42,944 nt of DNA, taken from positions 1 to 42,944 of IMG/VR virus record IMGVR_UViG_3300031707_000046; one strand, written 5' to 3'. Below are positions 2,725 to 14,072 of this stretch, piece by piece (the first letter of the stretch is position 1; each line of letters opens with the position of its first letter). The stretch comes from a virus. A program made the translations under genes and the position numbers. Below the pieces are notes generated by a model, which saw only the letters and a program-made list of their open reading frames with translations, did not search any database and was not told the origin of the DNA.

Positions 2725-3408
2725 TTACTCCTGGAGCTTCCTCGGGTCCTCGACCTTGAAGACGACCCTGTCGTCGGCCCAGGCTATGTCCCCGATGAAC
2801 GAGTCGATGAAGTCCTTGAAGAGCGCGTAGGTGTCTATGCCCGGGACGCCGAACTTCACGACGATCCGCTTCCCCTCGTAAATGTAGTTGTGGATCCGCG
2901 CGTCCCAGTACGCCTCGTTGTTGAGGACCTCGATGGAGCCGTACGTCTGCGCGATCCCGCCGTCGGAGAATGGCTTCGCCTCGAACGAGAGCTCGGGGAG
3001 CGATGCGCGGGAGAAGAGCGGCCGGTATTGCTTCCCATCGACGACGATCGTGCGGTCGGCGATCCGGTCCCAGAAGTGCGAGCGGACGAGGAAGAGGCCG
3101 CCGCCCGGATTGGCGCCCGTCGACCCGTGGACATAGAGCCGTTCGTTCCCGGGGCTCCAATACCAGGAGGAGACGGTGGCCTGGCACGTCGCGAGCGGCG
3201 CGACGTCGGGCGCATATTCCGTCGTGACCTTGGTCGAGAGCCGGCGCTCGAGGACCCGCGACGGCTTCCCCTCCGGGTGCGCGATCCACCAGCAGCTCGT
3301 GTTAGGCGCCGGCGCCTGCGTCCAGGCCGCGGTGTCGAGGCGCCGGCAGGGCTCGATCCCGCAGATCCAGACGAGGTCCTGGTCCTTCTTCGACGGGTCG
3401 AAACTCAA
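2725..3408 (-). CDS. Minor tail protein (distal tail)
   Basis: 227 residues from TTG 3408 (MSFDPSKKDQDLVW), inside the TTGA overlap with the upstream stop and preceded by GGAGG. The sequence is rich in aromatics and has several Cys residues (WICGIEPC, NTSCWW, LATCQATV). The second half (DGKQYRPLFSRASLPELSF) fits the immunoglobulin-like or beta-sandwich style of proteins encoded two genes after the tape measure. The slot corresponds to the DUF2163/BR0599 position in gene-transfer-agent-like tails, but clear homology cannot be claimed. Confidence 0.7.
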   Translation of the reverse strand: MSFDPSKKDQDLVWICGIEPCRRLDTAAWTQAPAPNTSCWWIAHPEGKPSRVLERRLSTKVTTEYAPDVAPLATCQATVSSWYWSPGNERLYVHGSTGANPGGGLFLVRSHFWDRIADRTIVVDGKQYRPLFSRASLPELSFEAKPFSDGGIAQTYGSIEVLNNEAYWDARIHNYIYEGKRIVVKFGVPGIDTYALFKDFIDSFIGDIAWADDRVVFKVEDPRKLQE

Positions 3409-4199
3409 GGCTCGTCCTCCAGCCGGAGGGTCGTCGACCAGGGCGTCAGGCAGGTCCTCAGCGGCCGCTTGATGGTCTCCATGAACGATATGTAGACAAT
3501 ACTCCCCGTAATGTCCGTCGAGTCGAGCGCGACCCAGAGCGGCCGCGTGTACGCGCCGCACCAGCGGGCCATCTCGTCGTAGCCGTCTATGTCCGCGAGC
3601 CCGGCGATCGTCACGGGCAGCGAGTAGGTGTCCCGGGCCGGCTGCCGAGAAGACGTCTTCTGGCCCGCCGGCGATTGGCCGATCGAGGACGGGTCGACAA
3701 GGTCGCGCCCTCCGCCCGGCTTGTAGTGGTATTTCGCCCGGAAGACCTCGCCGAAGAAGACGCGGGACGCGGAGACATAGCCGTCCGGGTTCGCGGCGTC
3801 GACGATGACGACGCGCCAGAACCGGTAGGTCTCCTCGGCCGGGAGCTTGACGGCGATTCTCTTCTTCGCAATCATCTCTGCGGTCACGGCGACGGACGTT
3901 GAGTAGGCGGTCGCGCCGATCCCGGTCGGGTCCGTGGGGTGCCCGCCGATCTCGACGGCCGCGCCGGCCGTGAGGTTCATGTTCTCAAGGACGAACCCCA
4001 GGACCGGCTTCGTCGCCCACTCCGCGCCGAGGTCCGCGACGATCTCGATCGCGCCGGCGACTCCGGCGCTCCGCCAGTCCCACGTCGCCCACCGCTCCTG
4101 GAGGTTTTCGACCGGGAAGTCCGGGTCCTCGGAGTTCGCCGTGACCGTCGCCGCGTCGAAGTGGTTCTTCCAGAAAAAATCGAGCTTCGGCGTGCTCAC
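3405..4199 (-). CDS. Minor tail protein after the tape measure
   Basis: 264 residues with a GTG start at 4199 overlapping the tape-measure stop (GTGA). Residues 1-60 contain DFFWKNHFDAATVTA and PVENLQERWATWDWRSAG, followed by an IVADLGAEWATKPVLGFVLENMN-like stretch that reads like a discoidin-type beta-sandwich. The arrangement (predicted carbohydrate-binding fold immediately downstream of the tape measure) suits a distal-tail component. Assignment rests on position and general fold impression. Confidence 0.72.
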   Translation of the reverse strand: MSTPKLDFFWKNHFDAATVTANSEDPDFPVENLQERWATWDWRSAGVAGAIEIVADLGAEWATKPVLGFVLENMNLTAGAAVEIGGHPTDPTGIGATAYSTSVAVTAEMIAKKRIAVKLPAEETYRFWRVVIVDAANPDGYVSASRVFFGEVFRAKYHYKPGGGRDLVDPSSIGQSPAGQKTSSRQPARDTYSLPVTIAGLADIDGYDEMARWCGAYTRPLWVALDSTDITGSIVYISFMETIKRPLRTCLTPWSTTLRLEDEP

Positions 4200-8930: not shown

Positions 8931-9488
8931 TTAGATTCCGAGCTCGGTCGACCCGGCGGGCATCCCGGCGCGTCCGAAATCGCCCACCTCGCCGCTTTCC
9001 TGGGAGACGAAGACGAGGAACGAGATCGGGAAGACCCTCTGCGTCGACCGGTCCCAGGTCAGCTCCCAGCCGGGGATCGGGACGGCCTTGTAGATCTCGA
9101 CCCATTCGCTCGGGTCCACGCTCACCGCATTGTTGCAGATCGGCTTGATCACGATCCGCTTCGCGTCGGCGTAGAGGTTGCATCCGGCCTGGTTCTTGAG
9201 CGCGATGTACTGGTAGGGTTCGGACCCGAGGATCCCGCCGGCGTTGAGCACCTCGTTGAGCTGGTCGAGCGTCGAGCGCGTCATCCGCGCCTCAAGCGTT
9301 GCTTCGGTCCCGCTGAAGATCGCGTCGACCGCGGCGTTCCCGAAGCGCTCCTCATAGATTTTCTCGACCGACGTGACGCCCTTGAAGGTCGTCGCGCCGA
9401 GGAAAGGGCCGAGATTCAGGGCTCCGGATTCGCCGTAGCCAAGAACGATCTCACAAGGTCCAAGGTCCTTGAACGGAAGTGCAGGCAT
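8931..9488 (-). CDS. Major tail tube protein
   Basis: 185 residues starting MPALPFKDLGPCEI, with GGAGG 5 bases upstream. Moderately sized, beta-rich and without low-complexity repeats: FKGVTSVEKIYEERFG, ATLEARMTRSTLDQLNEVL, PGWELTWDRSTQRVFPISF. These are features of siphovirus tube proteins (bacterial T6SS Hcp-like fold). It stands directly before the two chaperones and tape measure, the fixed position of this gene. The endonuclease gene upstream separates it from the tail-completion genes. Confidence 0.82.
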   Translation of the reverse strand: MPALPFKDLGPCEIVLGYGESGALNLGPFLGATTFKGVTSVEKIYEERFGNAAVDAIFSGTEATLEARMTRSTLDQLNEVLNAGGILGSEPYQYIALKNQAGCNLYADAKRIVIKPICNNAVSVDPSEWVEIYKAVPIPGWELTWDRSTQRVFPISFLVFVSQESGEVGDFGRAGMPAGSTELGI

Positions 9489-9518
9489 TTTTGCCTCCTA
9501 TGAAAGATTTATAGAAAT

Positions 9519-9536
9519 AGCCGAAGGCGGCTTTTT
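9519..9536 (+). terminator. Small hairpin with T run
   Basis: AGCCG-AAGG-CGGCT followed by TTTT on the plus strand. It lies between the tail-tube start and the HNH endonuclease promoter. It could stop plus-strand transcripts, or act as a stem in the minus-strand mRNA. Weak. Confidence 0.35.
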
Positions 9537-9563
9537 CCATATCGAATTTAGATATATATTTAT

Positions 9564-9593
9564 TTGACTTTTCTTTACCTATTAAAGTATAAT
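9564..9593 (+). promoter_or_regulatory. Near-consensus sigma70 promoter for the HNH endonuclease gene
   Basis: -35 TTGACT at 9564-9569, 18-bp spacer, -10 TATAAT at 9588-9593, then a purine-rich leader with GCAGGAA ahead of ATG 9613. The surrounding DNA is much more AT-rich than the phage genes. Confidence 0.75.
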
Positions 9594-9612
9594 TAAAGCA
9601 GGAAAAATAGAC

Positions 9613-10143
9613 ATGAACACAATCAAAAAACCGCATCCGCTGGCAGGAATTCCAAAGTCTGACGAACACAAAATAAAGATCAGTCAAACACTTATGGGCA
9701 GAAAAGCATCCGCTGAAACTCGCAAGAAAATGAGCAAATCTCATAAAGGGAGGCATCATACCCTGGAAACGATCAGGAAGATCCGCGAGTCGAATCTCGG
9801 ACAAAAACGGCCCGAGTCGATGAAGGCGAAAGAAAGTGGAGCGAATCATTACAACTGGAAGGGCGGAATTAGAAGAAGAATGGGATACATTCAGAGATAC
9901 GCTCCCGATCATCCTTTTGCAAAAAAGAGATATGTATATGAACATCGTCTTATAGTTGAAAAACAAATTGGGAGATTTCTTAAACCCAAAGAACACGTCC
10001 ATCACATTAATGGAAATAAAACTGATAACCGCGTCGAAAACCTTATGGCCTTTGTGTCCAATGGCGCGCATATTTATTTTGAAAATTGCGGAAAGATTCG
10101 CCCTGCTGATATTCTTTTTGATGGTCGAAATCTTTCTCATTAG
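9613..10143 (+). CDS. Free-standing HNH homing endonuclease with NUMOD3 repeats
   Basis: 176 residues. Three NUMOD3 DNA-binding motifs lie near residues 16-30, 33-47 and 50-64 (SDEHKIKISQTLMGRK; SAETRKKMSKSHKG; TLETIRKIRESNLGQ). The HNH domain follows: RHRL-type His near 111, then HVHHINGNKTDNRVENL at 128-144, typical of intron/intergenic homing nucleases (HNH_3). The gene is AT-rich and opposite to every neighbour. Its stop overlaps the stop of the upstream tail-terminator gene by 4 bases. It would cut unoccupied alleles between the tail-terminator and tail-tube genes and spread by repair copying. Confidence 0.92.
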   Translation: MNTIKKPHPLAGIPKSDEHKIKISQTLMGRKASAETRKKMSKSHKGRHHTLETIRKIRESNLGQKRPESMKAKESGANHYNWKGGIRRRMGYIQRYAPDHPFAKKRYVYEHRLIVEKQIGRFLKPKEHVHHINGNKTDNRVENLMAFVSNGAHIYFENCGKIRPADILFDGRNLSH

Positions 10144-10583
10144 GATCCACTTTCTCTGCTCCCGCATGAACCCAAGGCGCATCGAAAAATAAAATTACAG
10201 GAAAATTCGTGCCTCTCGTTCGCGTCCTGGCCGATGTATTGCGGGATCGCCAGCGCGTCGACCGCGTAGACGATGTAGCTGCCGCTGCCATCCTCGAAGG
10301 GGAGCGTCCAGCCGGCGGTCCCATGGAGCGCCTGGTAGACGGTCCAGGTGATGTCGCGCGCCTCAAAGTACTTCTTCGGGGCGCCGCGGCCGACGGCCTG
10401 GATGAGGACGTCCGCGCGGTCGGGGAGCTCGGGGACCGTGGCCCCGCCCCCGGACTCGGCGATGAGGACGCAGCGATCTGGCGCGTTCGGCAGCCGGTGT
10501 CCGACCTGGAGGATCCCCAGGCCATCGGGCTGCATGGCGAGACCCGTCAGACCCTCGATCAGCGTGCAGATTTCCTTCAGCAT
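10140..10583 (-). CDS. Tail terminator / minor capsid-like protein
   Basis: 147 residues starting MLKEICTLIEGLTGL, with GGGGGAT before the ATG. Size, position (third of three small neck genes before the tail tube) and motifs (DRADVLIQAVGRGAP, YIVYAVDALAIPQYIG) fit the tail terminator/minor capsid family. The last ~19 residues, after HEFSCNFIF, are encoded by suddenly AT-rich DNA next to the endonuclease, so the natural C-terminus was probably replaced or extended when the endonuclease gene arrived. Confidence 0.75.
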   Translation of the reverse strand: MLKEICTLIEGLTGLAMQPDGLGILQVGHRLPNAPDRCVLIAESGGGATVPELPDRADVLIQAVGRGAPKKYFEARDITWTVYQALHGTAGWTLPFEDGSGSYIVYAVDALAIPQYIGQDANERHEFSCNFIFRCALGSCGSRESGS

Positions 10584-10584
10584 C

Positions 10585-11001
10585 TTATCCCCCGAGCCTC
10601 AATCGCAGATACTCCGCCATGACGGCGAGATATCTCCCTGAGTTTCGGGCCATCTTCGACTCCAAATACTTCGGCCCGGATCCCGGGAGCGTCCAGCCGG
10701 GCGGATACATTTCCGCGCCGAACCCGATCCCGTAAAAGAGCTCGTGGAGCCGCGCCGCGTAGCAGATGTTGAAACCGGCGACGACCGAGATCTCGCCCGG
10801 CGTCGCGACGACCTCCGAGACCTGGGCCGACCCGCGCAGGTGGCCCTCCTTGAATGGCGCGTATGGCTTCTCGTAGAGCCCATCCCGGAGCAGCGCATTC
10901 CCAGCGGCGAACATGCCCCGGCTAAGGTCGTCCGGGACGGCGCCCTCGACGAGCCGCCGGAACCCCGCCTCGAAGTTCGCCATGTCGATCGTAAAGCCCA
11001 T
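10585..11001 (-). CDS. Neck protein, HK97 gp10-like
   Basis: 138 residues from ATG 11001 (MGFTIDMANFEAGFRRL), preceded by GGAGAG. The N-terminal helix followed by a region with LRGSAQVSEVVATPGE, then VVAGFNICYAARLHELFYG, is the signature look of the HK97 gp10-family tail-completion/neck proteins (typically 110-160 residues). It is second in the joining cluster after the head-closure gene. The longer open frame to 11226 is not coding. Confidence 0.8.
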   Translation of the reverse strand: MGFTIDMANFEAGFRRLVEGAVPDDLSRGMFAAGNALLRDGLYEKPYAPFKEGHLRGSAQVSEVVATPGEISVVAGFNICYAARLHELFYGIGFGAEMYPPGWTLPGSGPKYLESKMARNSGRYLAVMAEYLRLRLGG

Positions 11002-11009
11002 CTTCTCTC

Positions 11010-11336
11010 CTATGCCAGGAAGACCTGGTATATCCTCGGGTGCTTGAGCGCCGCCGGCTCGGCGATCGTGATGATCGTGCGCTCGAGCACGTTGTCGATG
11101 ATCATCCGGTCCTTGTGGTCGAGCGTCCGGCCGAGCGCCAGGTCCGTCCTCCGGATCGGGAGCCGGACGTTGACCTGCGACGCGACCTCCTCGCCCGCCA
11201 GCGACGGGACGAGGACGGTCTTCCACTCGACATAACCTCGGACGTCAACGCGCGTCGGCGTCTTCGGCTCACCCCACTCGTCGTTCCCCTCCCACTTGAG
11301 GATGACGATGGGATGGATGCAGATCGCGTTTATCAT
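11010..11336 (-). CDS. Head closure / head-tail joining protein
   Basis: 108 residues, starting at an ATG that shares its A with the TGA of the upstream minor head gene. The small beta-barrel-like sequence (IVILKWEGNDEWGEP, TRVDVRGYVEWKTVLV, DHKDRMIIDNVLERTIITI) is typical of head-closure proteins such as SPP1 gp16-type and lambda FII-like joiners. Position between the head and the gp10-like gene supports it. Confidence 0.75.
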   Translation of the reverse strand: MINAICIHPIVILKWEGNDEWGEPKTPTRVDVRGYVEWKTVLVPSLAGEEVASQVNVRLPIRRTDLALGRTLDHKDRMIIDNVLERTIITIAEPAALKHPRIYQVFLA

Positions 11337-13027
11337 CAGAGCCCCCTCGCCCGGACGTTCCTCTCGGCCTCCGACGTCGGGAGGATCGAGTGGAGGCAGT
11401 TGCTTGACAATATCCCATTGGCAAGATATAATGAGGTTGTCGTCTGGAAGTCATAAACAAAACCATGAAACGAATTAATGTGGATATCGACAAGGCGATC
11501 GAACTCTATAAGTCCGGGCTTTTGATGAGTGAGATCGCCAGGAAATTCGGCGTTCATTGGATGGTTATCAGAAAGCGGCTGATTGAGTCCGGCGTTACCT
11601 TGCGCCCCCTCTCGGAGGTTCAGCGCATCAAAATGTCCCGCGCGACGAAGGAAGAACGGGCTAGGCAAACGAAACCCGCCCATGATGCCGTCCGCGGCAT
11701 GCGCCGTACGATGGAAGACCTCTGCAAGCGGGCCAAGGGAAAAGAAATCAGACAAAGCCACGCGAGTCGAATTGAAAACATCGCCATTGAGCGCCTGGAA
11801 TCCCGCGGGTTTAATTGCGTCCCGCAAAAAGCCATTGGTCCCTATAATGTCGATATTGCCATCACAAAACCGCCCATCGCCGTGGAGATATTCGGGGGCA
11901 GTTGGCATACTTCGGCTCGTCATGCCGCTCGTTTTCGCAAGAGAACTGATTATCTTCTCGACCAAGGTTGGCTTCCTGTTTTCATCTGGGTTATCAGAGA
12001 CTATCCGCTGGAAATCGGGGCAATAGAATACATCGTCGCCCTTGCGAAGAAGATGCGCCGGAGCAAAACCATGGGGCGTCAAGAGCATATGATTTTTGGT
12101 AACGGACAGCCGGCCCGAGTTGGCAAACGTAAGTTCAATGGCCTCCCCGTGATACTGCGCCCTAATGCCCGCGATGATTCCACCGGGCGTTATAAGCCGG
12201 GTTCCTGGTAAAACGCAGTTTGGGTGGAACGGCGTCCACTCCTCGAGCTTCGGGTATCTCGGGTGGTCCCCGGAAATTGAATAGACCTGCCCCTCGAAGG
12301 AAAGGCAGATCAGGCAGTCCGTCCCGTGCGAGGAGACCTCGACGAGGTCGTTCTCGTAGACCCCGCAGGTGTCGATCGTCGCCCTCGTCTGGGCCTCCCG
12401 GAGCGTCGTCCGGGCGACCATCTTCGCGTATTTCCCGAGGTTGTACATCCGCTTGACGCCGTCCTTGCCGACGATCTCGATGAAGTCCTCGTCGCCGACA
12501 AGGACGGTGAGCCGGTCCCGGATGAGCTTCATGAGGGCGGCCCGGGAGAGCTCGCGCTTGACCGCCTCCCTGGCAAGTTCGTCAAGGAATTCCTCGTCCT
12601 CGCGGTAGCTGAACTCCTGGACCTTCGCCGGCGCGCCCCGGATCGTCCGGGCGGCCATGAGGCTGATCGTCACGTAGCGCTCGACCGTCCTCATGATCGA
12701 TCCGGTCGCCTCGAGGATCGTCGTCTCGACGGCCTGCTCGACGGCCTCGGGGCCGGAGAGCGCGGGAAGTTTGCCCGCCGGCTGGTGCTTGTCGATCCTC
12801 CAGAGGATTCTCCTCGCCTCGCGCTGGCCGCGGGCGTACTGCTCGCGCGCGGTGGATTGCGCCCAACGGCCGGAGATGGCGTTGAGGTAGGAGACGACGC
12901 GGCGCGCCTTCCGCTTCAGCTCCTCGGCCTCGGCGATGTCGAACGTCTCCGAGTCGGCCGCGAGGAGGATCTTCCTCAGCTCATGGCCGGCCGCCGCGTA
13001 GGTCCGCTGGAGGTCAACATACCTCAT
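11336..13027 (-). CDS. Minor head protein (MuF type) interrupted by an in-frame intein
   Basis: 563-residue precursor from ATG 13027 (MRYVDLQRTYAAAG) behind GGGGAGG. The N-extein (270 residues) is a helical head-morphogenesis protein ending in the metal-binding-like block TDCLICLSFEGQVY...WTPFHPN. The intein starts at Cys 271, and after 273 residues the 20-residue C-extein resumes with CLHSILPTSE. The joined motif HPN-CLHS is the conserved Cys/His end of phage MuF/SPP1 gp7-like proteins, so splicing would restore a 290-residue protein. Its place differs from many phages, where it follows the portal directly; here decoration, capsid and glyco genes intervene. Unspliced protein would lack an intact Cys/His motif. 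Confidence 0.9.
   Translation of the reverse strand: MRYVDLQRTYAAAGHELRKILLAADSETFDIAEAEELKRKARRVVSYLNAISGRWAQSTAREQYARGQREARRILWRIDKHQPAGKLPALSGPEAVEQAVETTILEATGSIMRTVERYVTISLMAARTIRGAPAKVQEFSYREDEEFLDELAREAVKRELSRAALMKLIRDRLTVLVGDEDFIEIVGKDGVKRMYNLGKYAKMVARTTLREAQTRATIDTCGVYENDLVEVSSHGTDCLICLSFEGQVYSISGDHPRYPKLEEWTPFHPNCVLPGTRLITPGGIIAGIRAQYHGEAIELTFANSGRLSVTKNHMLLTPHGFAPAHLLRKGDDVFYCPDFQRIVSDNPDENRKPTLVEKIISSLAKTSGMTSRSMPTAPEYLHGDGRFCDGNIDIIGTNGFLRDAIKPAGFQALNGDVFNSTRVALSDFFSLGPLAEVFHRTAHAADGIMGGFRLPSPFFLRRAGHFDALNLREGAQGNAGLNQPLSDNHPMNAEFPGDLTHQKPGLIEFDRLVDIHINSFHGFVYDFQTTTSLYLANGILSSNCLHSILPTSEAERNVRARGL
11404..11432 (+). promoter_or_regulatory. Perfect-consensus sigma70 promoter antisense to intein blocks F/G
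   Basis: TTGACA at 11404-11409, exactly 17 bp, TATAAT at 11427-11432. A start near 11439 would leave a ~25-base leader with GGAAG at 11446-11450 before ATG 11465. It points into the nested endonuclease gene. The same bases encode the intein residues S-L-Y-L-A-N-G-I-L-S-S on the minus strand. Confidence 0.85.
11465..12211 (+). CDS. Vsr-like (EDxHD/DUF559-type) homing endonuclease nested antisense in the intein
   Basis: 248 residues. Residues 9-40 form a helix-turn-helix (DKAIELYKSGLLMSEIARKF). Residues 102-178 hold a Vsr/PD-(D/E)XK-like nuclease core: E104, YNVDIAI (D130), IAVEIFGGSWH (E141, H148), RTDYLLDQGWLPVFIWV. The C-terminal ~60 residues are low in recognisable motifs and are the complement of intein blocks A/B. 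The gene lies wholly inside the intein (11399-12217): its ATG is opposite intein residue 251, its TAA opposite Leu3 (TTA). Codons of both strands are in register. Expected role: cutting intein-free minor-head genes so the intein is copied in. Similar nucleases are known next to split inteins; here the intein frame stays open. Confidence 0.9.
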   Translation: MKRINVDIDKAIELYKSGLLMSEIARKFGVHWMVIRKRLIESGVTLRPLSEVQRIKMSRATKEERARQTKPAHDAVRGMRRTMEDLCKRAKGKEIRQSHASRIENIAIERLESRGFNCVPQKAIGPYNVDIAITKPPIAVEIFGGSWHTSARHAARFRKRTDYLLDQGWLPVFIWVIRDYPLEIGAIEYIVALAKKMRRSKTMGRQEHMIFGNGQPARVGKRKFNGLPVILRPNARDDSTGRYKPGSW

Positions 13028-13494
13028 CTGAACCTCCCCACCTTCACGCTCGCCTTCCGCTCCTCGTCGCGGCCCATGTCGCAGACCGCGATGTAGGGCC
13101 CGTCGACGGACCAGGGCGCGAGGATCGCGATAACGGCCGGCGGGACCGGGAGGTCCATGAGCGCGGCCTCGGAGTACCTCTCCTTGATCGCCGTCTCCTC
13201 GATGACGGCCTGGGCCTGGAGCCCCTTCCGGACGTCCTCGTCCTCGAGGTGGACGGCGAGGTAGTAGGCCATCTCGGCGTTCGCGATCCGGAGCTTTACG
13301 AGCTCCGCCGGCGTCGCCGTCGCGTAGGTCGGCAGTCCCGTCCAGCGCGGGTCGTAGTAGATCCGGTTGTAGGCCATCCTCGCGACCTTCGTCTTCCTCG
13401 CCGGCACCAGCGAGTCCCAGGCGCTCGTCTCGAGCCGCTCGTCGGTGAAGTACGCGTCCGCGTCCGTGATGTCGGCGAACCATCCCTCGCTCAT
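13024..13494 (-). CDS. Head-tail adaptor (gp6-like) protein
   Basis: 156 residues from ATG 13494 (MSEGWFADITDADAYF), behind GGGAGG. The pattern 'ADAYFTDERLETSAWDSL' then 'VARMAYNRIYYDPRWTGL' and a helical middle is typical of the head-tail connector/gp6-like and DnaT-like phage adaptor family, which assembles under the portal. It overlaps the following MuF gene start by 4 bases. The open frame to 14286 upstream is noise. Confidence 0.72.
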   Translation of the reverse strand: MSEGWFADITDADAYFTDERLETSAWDSLVPARKTKVARMAYNRIYYDPRWTGLPTYATATPAELVKLRIANAEMAYYLAVHLEDEDVRKGLQAQAVIEETAIKERYSEAALMDLPVPPAVIAILAPWSVDGPYIAVCDMGRDEERKASVKVGRFR

Positions 13495-14072
13495 CTTGCA
13501 CCTCCCGACCGGAAGTCGATGACCGCGTAGAAGAACCTGCCCTCGGAAAGGATCCGGACCCGCCCCATCCCCTCGAGGAGCTCCATGAGGGTCTCCCGGG
13601 TGTACGCCCTGAGGTGCCCGGGGTCCTTCACCCGAACGTTCGGCGTCGTGATGACGATCCGCCGGCGCGCCAGGAGGAGCAGGCCGCGCACGAAAGCGAC
13701 GTCGTCCTCGACGTGCTCGATGACCTCCGAGCAGACGACGGAGTCGAACGTCCGACCGCGGGCAGCCGCGAGCATGTCGTGGTCCGGGGCGTAGAAGAAC
13801 GGGTACTGCGGGAACCTCCTCCGGGCCTCGAGGACCGCGCCCTCGTCGAAGTCCATGCCCGTCCAGGTCGCGGGCCGGAACCTTGCCATGTGGTCCGTCG
13901 AATGGCCGAAAGCGCAGCCGACGTCGATGAACTCCGAGGCCTCCGGGTCCGTCTTGTTCCCGAGGCAGAGGTCCGCGCAGCGCCGGAGCCGGACCTGGTG
14001 CTTCTGCGCGAGGAGGTTCCGCCAGACCTTGTTCGGCCGCCAGTGGGTTTCGATGTACTGTTTCGCGTTCAT
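13491..14072 (-). CDS. SAM-dependent methyltransferase (class I)
   Basis: 193 residues. Motif I is SEFIDVGCAFGHSTD (residues 46-60), motif II-like WTGMDFDEGAVLEAR, motif IV-like FDSVVCSEVIEHVEDD, then LARRRIVITTPN. This is the small-molecule/sugar methyltransferase type (Methyltransf_11/23), not a DNA methylase: no NPPY/PPCQ motif. It ends a run of sugar-transfer genes with 4-base overlaps, so it probably methylates a glycan or its carrier protein. Confidence 0.88.
   Translation of the reverse strand: MNAKQYIETHWRPNKVWRNLLAQKHQVRLRRCADLCLGNKTDPEASEFIDVGCAFGHSTDHMARFRPATWTGMDFDEGAVLEARRRFPQYPFFYAPDHDMLAAARGRTFDSVVCSEVIEHVEDDVAFVRGLLLLARRRIVITTPNVRVKDPGHLRAYTRETLMELLEGMGRVRILSEGRFFYAVIDFRSGGAR

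Follow-up and report, generated by a model that had tools for sequence, protein, structure and literature searches.

In the IMG/VR virus record IMGVR_UViG_3300031707_000046, analysed over its whole length of 42,944 bases (the window), the gene of a MuF-like minor capsid protein carries an intein of 273 residues, and the opposite strand of the intein gene encodes a nuclease of 248 residues. Very probably the two make up a mobile intein and its homing endonuclease, the gene of the latter being read from the complementary strand, contained entirely within the intein gene and sharing its codon register. The intein frame at 11399-12217 (minus strand) and the nuclease open reading frame (ORF) at 11465-12211 (plus strand) are both open, and their lengths, coordinates and shared codon boundaries agree with a first-pass annotation made from the letters of the window alone. 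As described there, the nuclease stop codon, TAA at 12209-12211, lies opposite the TTA codon of intein Leu3, and the nuclease ATG (11465-11467) faces residue 251, being the complement of His251. The element has a GC content of about 50-57%, as compared to 65% in its surroundings.

The intein was recognised by its residues, its modelled fold and its site of insertion. On its own it gives a weak match to the profile Intein_splicing (0.0013), but 61 of 64 relatives match, the best of them at 1.5e-16. C1, H43 and N273 are invariant in these 64 relatives, T40, N42, V254 and Y255 are conserved in at least 90%, and the +1 residue is Cys in nearly all; residue 1, the TxxH of block B and the terminal Asn are thus as expected of an intein. 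The HINT domain is modelled with confidence and much of the linker with low confidence. The leading Foldseek matches of the model are inteins, with TliVMA at 1.8e-4 and the splicing domain of the Mtu RecA intein at a probability of 1.00. The intein is inserted in frame at the conserved site HPN/C of MuF, and intein-free homologues exist. The earlier claim that the linker has no nuclease of its own holds, as the 64 intein frames match only Intein_splicing, together with a weak Hint match, in Pfam.

The proposed identity of the antisense product, a Vsr-like endonuclease, is supported by both profile and fold. The Pfam matches are MTES_1575 (2.4e-8; 34.4 bits, with a gathering cut-off of 38.2) and DUF559 (0.003), and 65 of 71 relatives have a profile match at E <= 0.01. 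The model, with a predicted local distance difference test (pLDDT) of 86, consists of an N-terminal helix-turn-helix (HTH), a helical linker and an alpha/beta core, and very low confidence is confined to the tail opposite the intein N-terminus. The Foldseek leaders are the endonuclease-like protein 3hrl, I-Bth0305I (3r3p, probability 1.00) and E. coli Vsr (1cw0/1vsr, 0.99). The active-site residues, judged by conservation among relatives without a residue-by-residue alignment to I-Bth0305I, are E104 (68 of 71 relatives), D130 (71), E141 (69) and H148 (70), and R160 is also almost invariant. A phmmer search of PDB sequences gave no useful match for either the nuclease or the intein.

The same arrangement is found in a large family. 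The nuclease search of viral contigs gave 13 loci and then 466 with an alignment, of which 80 were kept, and the search of prokaryote genomes gave 12. These 105 nuclease-first loci include duplicates, about 76 being distinct. In every one of them the complementary in-register frame is stop-free and encodes a MuF intein, with the other two antisense frames closed, and none has a nuclease without an intein opposite; the closed or unconserved frame that the first-pass annotation had named as counter-evidence is not what the homologous inteins show. Its other possible refutation, a nuclease translation that matches no such profile, did not occur either. An independent, intein-first search, for which the query was the N-terminal splicing half only, gave 55 loci. 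All 55 have the nuclease on the opposite strand (1 frameshifted, 2 cut by contig ends), and no intein of this class without the nuclease was seen among them. Ten diverse N-exteins were profile-tested, and all ten are MuF or minor capsid proteins. The nuclease matches 124 named-phage records, and the carriers include Salmonella Jerseyvirus, the Escherichia phages Snoke and fEg-Eco06, Pantoea AH01, Aaphi23, Rhodococcus REQ3 and phages of Gordonia, Pseudomonas, Vibrio, Klebsiella and Edwardsiella.

Some of the carriers differ from the common form. In the Escherichia phage fEg-Eco06 (L031) an intein of the same class, with its antisense nuclease, sits at a second MuF site, STT/CRARDG, which is N-terminal to the usual HPN/C; the latter is empty in this phage. 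The Rhodococcus phage REQ3 (L036) has at 2962-3504 a shortened nuclease of about 180 residues that lacks the HTH; the intein facing it is shorter too, and the nuclease may be reduced or decaying. Both frames are broken by several frameshifts in the Salmonella phage GE_vB_HIL (L030, an UNVERIFIED record), and these are probably sequencing errors. In the annotated stretches viewed the nuclease was not annotated, save for a hypothetical fragment of 402 bp in the Salmonella phage vB_StyS-sam (L020, 2697-3098), where ORF43 begins inside the antisense nuclease.

The openness of the antisense frame is not due to chance. In 31 nuclease ORFs the codons TTA, CTA and TCA are absent, with 264 expected from base composition, which confirms the avoidance noted in the first-pass annotation; the other two antisense frames of the same ORFs contain 3-37 stops each. 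Over the 76 distinct loci, 9 such triplets were counted for the intein strand inside the nuclease ORF (750 expected), as compared to 327 in the adjoining N-extein (416 expected). Neighbouring host genes served as a further control, and 24 of 188 stretches of 245 codons were open in that antisense frame, with none of 43 open in loci where the nuclease match is below 50% GC. The stop avoidance and the host-gene control thus rule out a chance antisense ORF in GC-rich DNA. The register is workable because every stop that can arise there (TTA, CTA, TCA) is removable by a synonymous change in the partner gene, and this may be the reason why it was kept.

To see which protein each part of the sequence is conserved for, the changes between nine pairs of relatives were sorted by nuclease codon position (1:2:3). 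The linker gave 416:252:672, close to the ordinary-gene pattern of the extein control in its own frame (399:268:734), and the HINT half gave 133:36:143; the binomial p for the nuclease-type bias is 8e-15. Identity in the linker is 71% in the nuclease frame and 55% in the intein frame, as compared to 72% and 74% in the splicing half. Together these counts and identities imply that the linker evolves as nuclease and that the splicing half is constrained for two proteins. The intein linker seems to be mostly a passive shadow of the nuclease gene. A linker motif, P-x-x-x-(D/Y)-(F/L)-H-G-D-G, was considered as a functional intein domain and rejected: the strand opposite it encodes the active site of the nuclease, VEIFGGSWH, and changes in the motif track the nuclease frame (p3/p1 1.64). 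Intein length follows nuclease length (r = 0.94), partly through extra HTH modules, second HTH matches being found in the long nucleases, and nuclease-core distances are correlated with HINT distances (Mantel r = 0.64, p = 0.0005). Of the two frames it is the nuclease's that breaks: in nine loci it contains stops although the intein is still open, as one would predict for an essential capsid gene and a nuclease left to decay from one round of homing to the next.

The nuclease also seems to have expression signals of its own. A promoter TTGACA-N17-TATAAT on the plus strand (11404-11432) lies 5' of it, the only 12/12 site within 9000-13500; on the other strand the same bases form codons of the conserved C-terminal intein motif S-L-Y-x-A-N-G-x-x-S-S-N. 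Neither this promoter nor the large family had been noticed in the first-pass annotation. The position was found in the window first and then tested in relatives: at the identical position at least 10/12 matches occur in 44 of 95 distinct loci, and 22 are perfect. When the codons were shuffled synonymously with local usage, the score of the window promoter was never reached in 20,000 trials (p < 5e-5). An extended -10 box, TGnTATAAT, tends to occur in inteins that end in HN and not in SSN (Jersey, Snoke, AH01). A GAGG-type core of a Shine-Dalgarno (SD) sequence is found opposite the codons of intein block F in 58 of 76 distinct loci, and most relatives have GGAGGT about 8 nt from the nuclease ATG.

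The distribution of the element points to mobility. In both Jerseyvirus and Kagunavirus, carriers of the intein differ from intein-free members by an exact insertion after HPN, and each genus has empty HPN/C alleles (SP-101, Shelanagig, fFiEco03). Between Jersey and Snoke the intein is 95.7% identical, as compared to 70% for the 400 bp upstream and 81% for the 250 bp downstream; in AH01 and SE1, with similarly diverged flanks, the intein identity is 79-82%. The Snoke genome paper had earlier reported a near-identical intein in LSPA1 and none in K1ind2 (PMC6776784). Judged from these sequences, the whole element moves laterally between genera, and homing is supported by the empty alleles and by inteins that are near-identical although their flanks have diverged.

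Taken together, a homing cycle can be proposed. The capsid operon would be transcribed on the minus strand and the MuF precursor translated, whereupon the HINT domain, its motifs being intact, would splice itself out, and through this self-excision the essential capsid gene would survive. The sigma-70 promoter in the C-terminal intein codons would drive a separate plus-strand mRNA, presumably made by the host polymerase, from which the nuclease would be translated; separate transcription would allow it to be made at another time and level than the capsid protein. The HTH and Vsr-like nuclease would then cut intein-free MuF alleles near HPN/C in co-infecting phages, and repair would copy the intein and nuclease into the cut allele, in line with the lateral transfer and the empty alleles.

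Several points speak against this cycle, or at least weaken it. Splicing, expression of the nuclease and cleavage are steps that we infer. Only about half of the distinct loci have a promoter close to consensus, in many members, most of all the GC-rich ones, neither type of promoter can be recognised, and the distance from SD to ATG in the window is long, 14 nt. The Foldseek E-values of the nuclease are modest, 0.01-0.06 (at probabilities of 0.99-1.00). The empty alleles compared come from Jerseyvirus and Kagunavirus, lineages other than the window's own. Finally, AlphaFold gives a pLDDT of about 75-87 to intein residues 81-128 (about 11834-11977), the shadow of the nuclease active site, and part of the linker may, according to this model, fold by itself.

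It is conceivable that the nuclease is a free-standing selfish gene which was dropped in reverse into the intein linker and rides along, the two making up no functional homing unit. The window does hold another homing-type gene (HNH, 9613-10143), and the linker does resemble a passive shadow, but the association of intein and nuclease holds both ways in all sampled loci, their distances are correlated as given above, the promoter, SD and start of the nuclease are built into splicing-domain codons, and the intein appears to have been transferred between genera as a whole, which makes this explanation improbable. Slightly less probable again is another role for the nuclease, such as keeping out or attacking rival phages, for which the intein would be a safe harbour. 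Such exclusion has been reported for some homing endonucleases (PMC6669764), and the HTH and Vsr-like architecture leaves the target unrevealed; however, an element that some members of a genus have and others lack at one exact site, and that is transferred laterally into diverged flanks, bears the marks of homing, and the two roles are not mutually exclusive. An overprinting artefact, in which GC-rich coding sequence leaves an antisense ORF open but no protein is made, can practically be dismissed. GC-rich genes are indeed often open antisense in register (above 65% GC, 12 of the 31 host-gene stretches are), but this ORF stays open in loci of about 43% GC as well, where none of the 43 host-gene stretches is, and the profile and fold matches, the codon-position bias, the promoter and the SD all contradict it.

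Table 1. Features of the MuF gene, its intein and the antisense nuclease in the window.
Feature	Position	Strand	Basis
MuF-like minor capsid gene, 563-residue precursor including intein	11336..13027	-	Phage_min_cap2 4.1e-7, phrog_4611 3.9e-20
Intein, 273 residues, Cys1 ... Ser-Ser-Asn273, followed by Cys+1, at HPN/C of MuF	11399..12217	-	invariant residues, modelled HINT fold
HINT N-terminal splicing half, intein residues 1-66, overlapping the nuclease C-terminal tail	12020..12217	-	pLDDT ~85-97; both frames constrained
HINT C-terminal splicing half, intein residues 237-273, blocks F and G	11399..11509	-	pLDDT ~88-97
Antisense homing endonuclease gene (probable), 248 residues	11465..12211	+	MTES_1575, DUF559; Vsr/I-Bth0305I fold; codon-position test
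Helix-turn-helix module, nuclease residues 8-41	11486..11587	+	model helices 8-16, 21-28, 32-41; HTH Pfam matches in relatives
Vsr/EDxHD-type catalytic core, nuclease residues 102-211	11768..12097	+	conservation, fold
Core residues of nuclease: E104, Y127-N128-x-D130, E141, H148, R160	within 11768..12097	+	conservation
-35 box TTGACA, complement of intein Leu-Ser-Ser codons	11404..11409	+	12/12 promoter, 17-nt spacer
-10 box TATAAT, complement of intein Ser-Leu-Tyr codons	11427..11432	+	12/12 promoter
Weak Shine-Dalgarno-like GGAAG 5' of nuclease ATG, 14-nt spacing	11446..11450	+	

The MuF precursor probably starts at MRYVDL..., the same start as in a relative (L015). The HNH gene at 9613-10143 (plus strand) matches HNH_3 (6e-11) with NUMOD3; its GC content is about 40%, as against 65% for the genome. 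It is antisense to the head-tail operon, lies between the genes of a head-tail connector (10140-10583) and an Ig-domain protein (8931-9488), and has a promoter-like TTGACT-N18-TATAAT of its own at 9564-9593.

Split inteins with a nuclease gene between their halves are said to have been described by Dassa et al. in 2009; here the intein is unsplit, with one continuous frame in 105 of 105 loci opposite the whole nuclease gene. Canonical mobile inteins with an in-frame LAGLIDADG or HNH nuclease (PI-PfuI, TliVMA; PMC8966425) have the same HINT domain, homing into intein-free alleles and cycle of invasion and decay. Unlike in these, the endonuclease is here a separate protein from the opposite strand, and the intein that is spliced out has no nuclease domain, none being found in the reading frame of 64 inteins. 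The EDxHD (Vsr-like) homing endonucleases such as I-Bth0305I are of the same fold class and are likewise found in phages and associated with inteins and introns (PMC3943268). The ShiLan insertion of phage methylases likewise holds a selfish endonuclease whose DNA doubles as an in-frame insertion in a host gene and which was missed by annotation, but this is an HNH gene on the same strand, in the third frame, with no splicing domain and no detectable ribosome binding site (PMC11855218); the present nuclease is Vsr-like, on the opposite strand and in codon register, and has a real intein with HINT, a promoter and an SD. Complementary-strand endonuclease genes of group I introns, for example in Porphyra, are likewise antisense to the host gene of a self-splicing element, with the difference that the other strand is intron RNA and not a second protein-coding frame (PMC2585584). 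MuF inteins have been annotated in the same capsid gene of Guernseyvirinae (Snoke, PMC6776784; UPWr, PMC8425127; vKMB36, PMC11162368), and those of Snoke and UPWr are members of the antisense-nuclease class; the parts of these accounts that we consulted make no mention of the antisense nuclease.

Compared with the features that define the fused, split and ShiLan types, the element fits none of the three, and it is therefore classed as a mobile-intein variant of its own. The first-pass annotation had suspected such a distinct design, to which the widespread class and the nuclease's own promoter can now be added. The parts, inteins, Vsr-like homing nucleases, split genes, hidden HNH genes and antisense intron endonucleases, are already known, and it is their arrangement that seems to be new. 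In the literature searched we found no earlier account of an intein with an antisense endonuclease in it. The main doubt on novelty comes from a 2025 preprint on actinobacteriophage inteins of 'non-canonical architecture' (Gosselin, Arsenault and Gogarten, doi 10.1101/2025.01.02.630785), which lies outside that search and is cited for overlapping frames in PMC11855218.

On balance, it is more likely than not that the element represents a global, previously undescribed class of mobile inteins in phage head proteins, with a complementary-strand nuclease that has its promoter, ribosome binding site and start there. The class would then rank among the largest families in nature of antisense protein pairs that are completely nested and demonstrably divide constraint between the strands. 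It would add a third arrangement to the fusion in frame and the split gene for joining a splicing element to a homing nuclease, and a whole nuclease family would have been hidden from gene callers in well-known phages. Opposite-strand double coding has been discussed mainly in theory, for instance for the two classes of tRNA synthetases. Since nearly every codon of the nuclease is shared by both proteins, the family is a natural experiment on such coding. The nucleases, which are presumably site-specific, also provide a group of enzymes whose candidate target sites are known, and as carriers and empty relatives both exist among E. coli phages (Snoke, fFiEco03-like), the system is testable.
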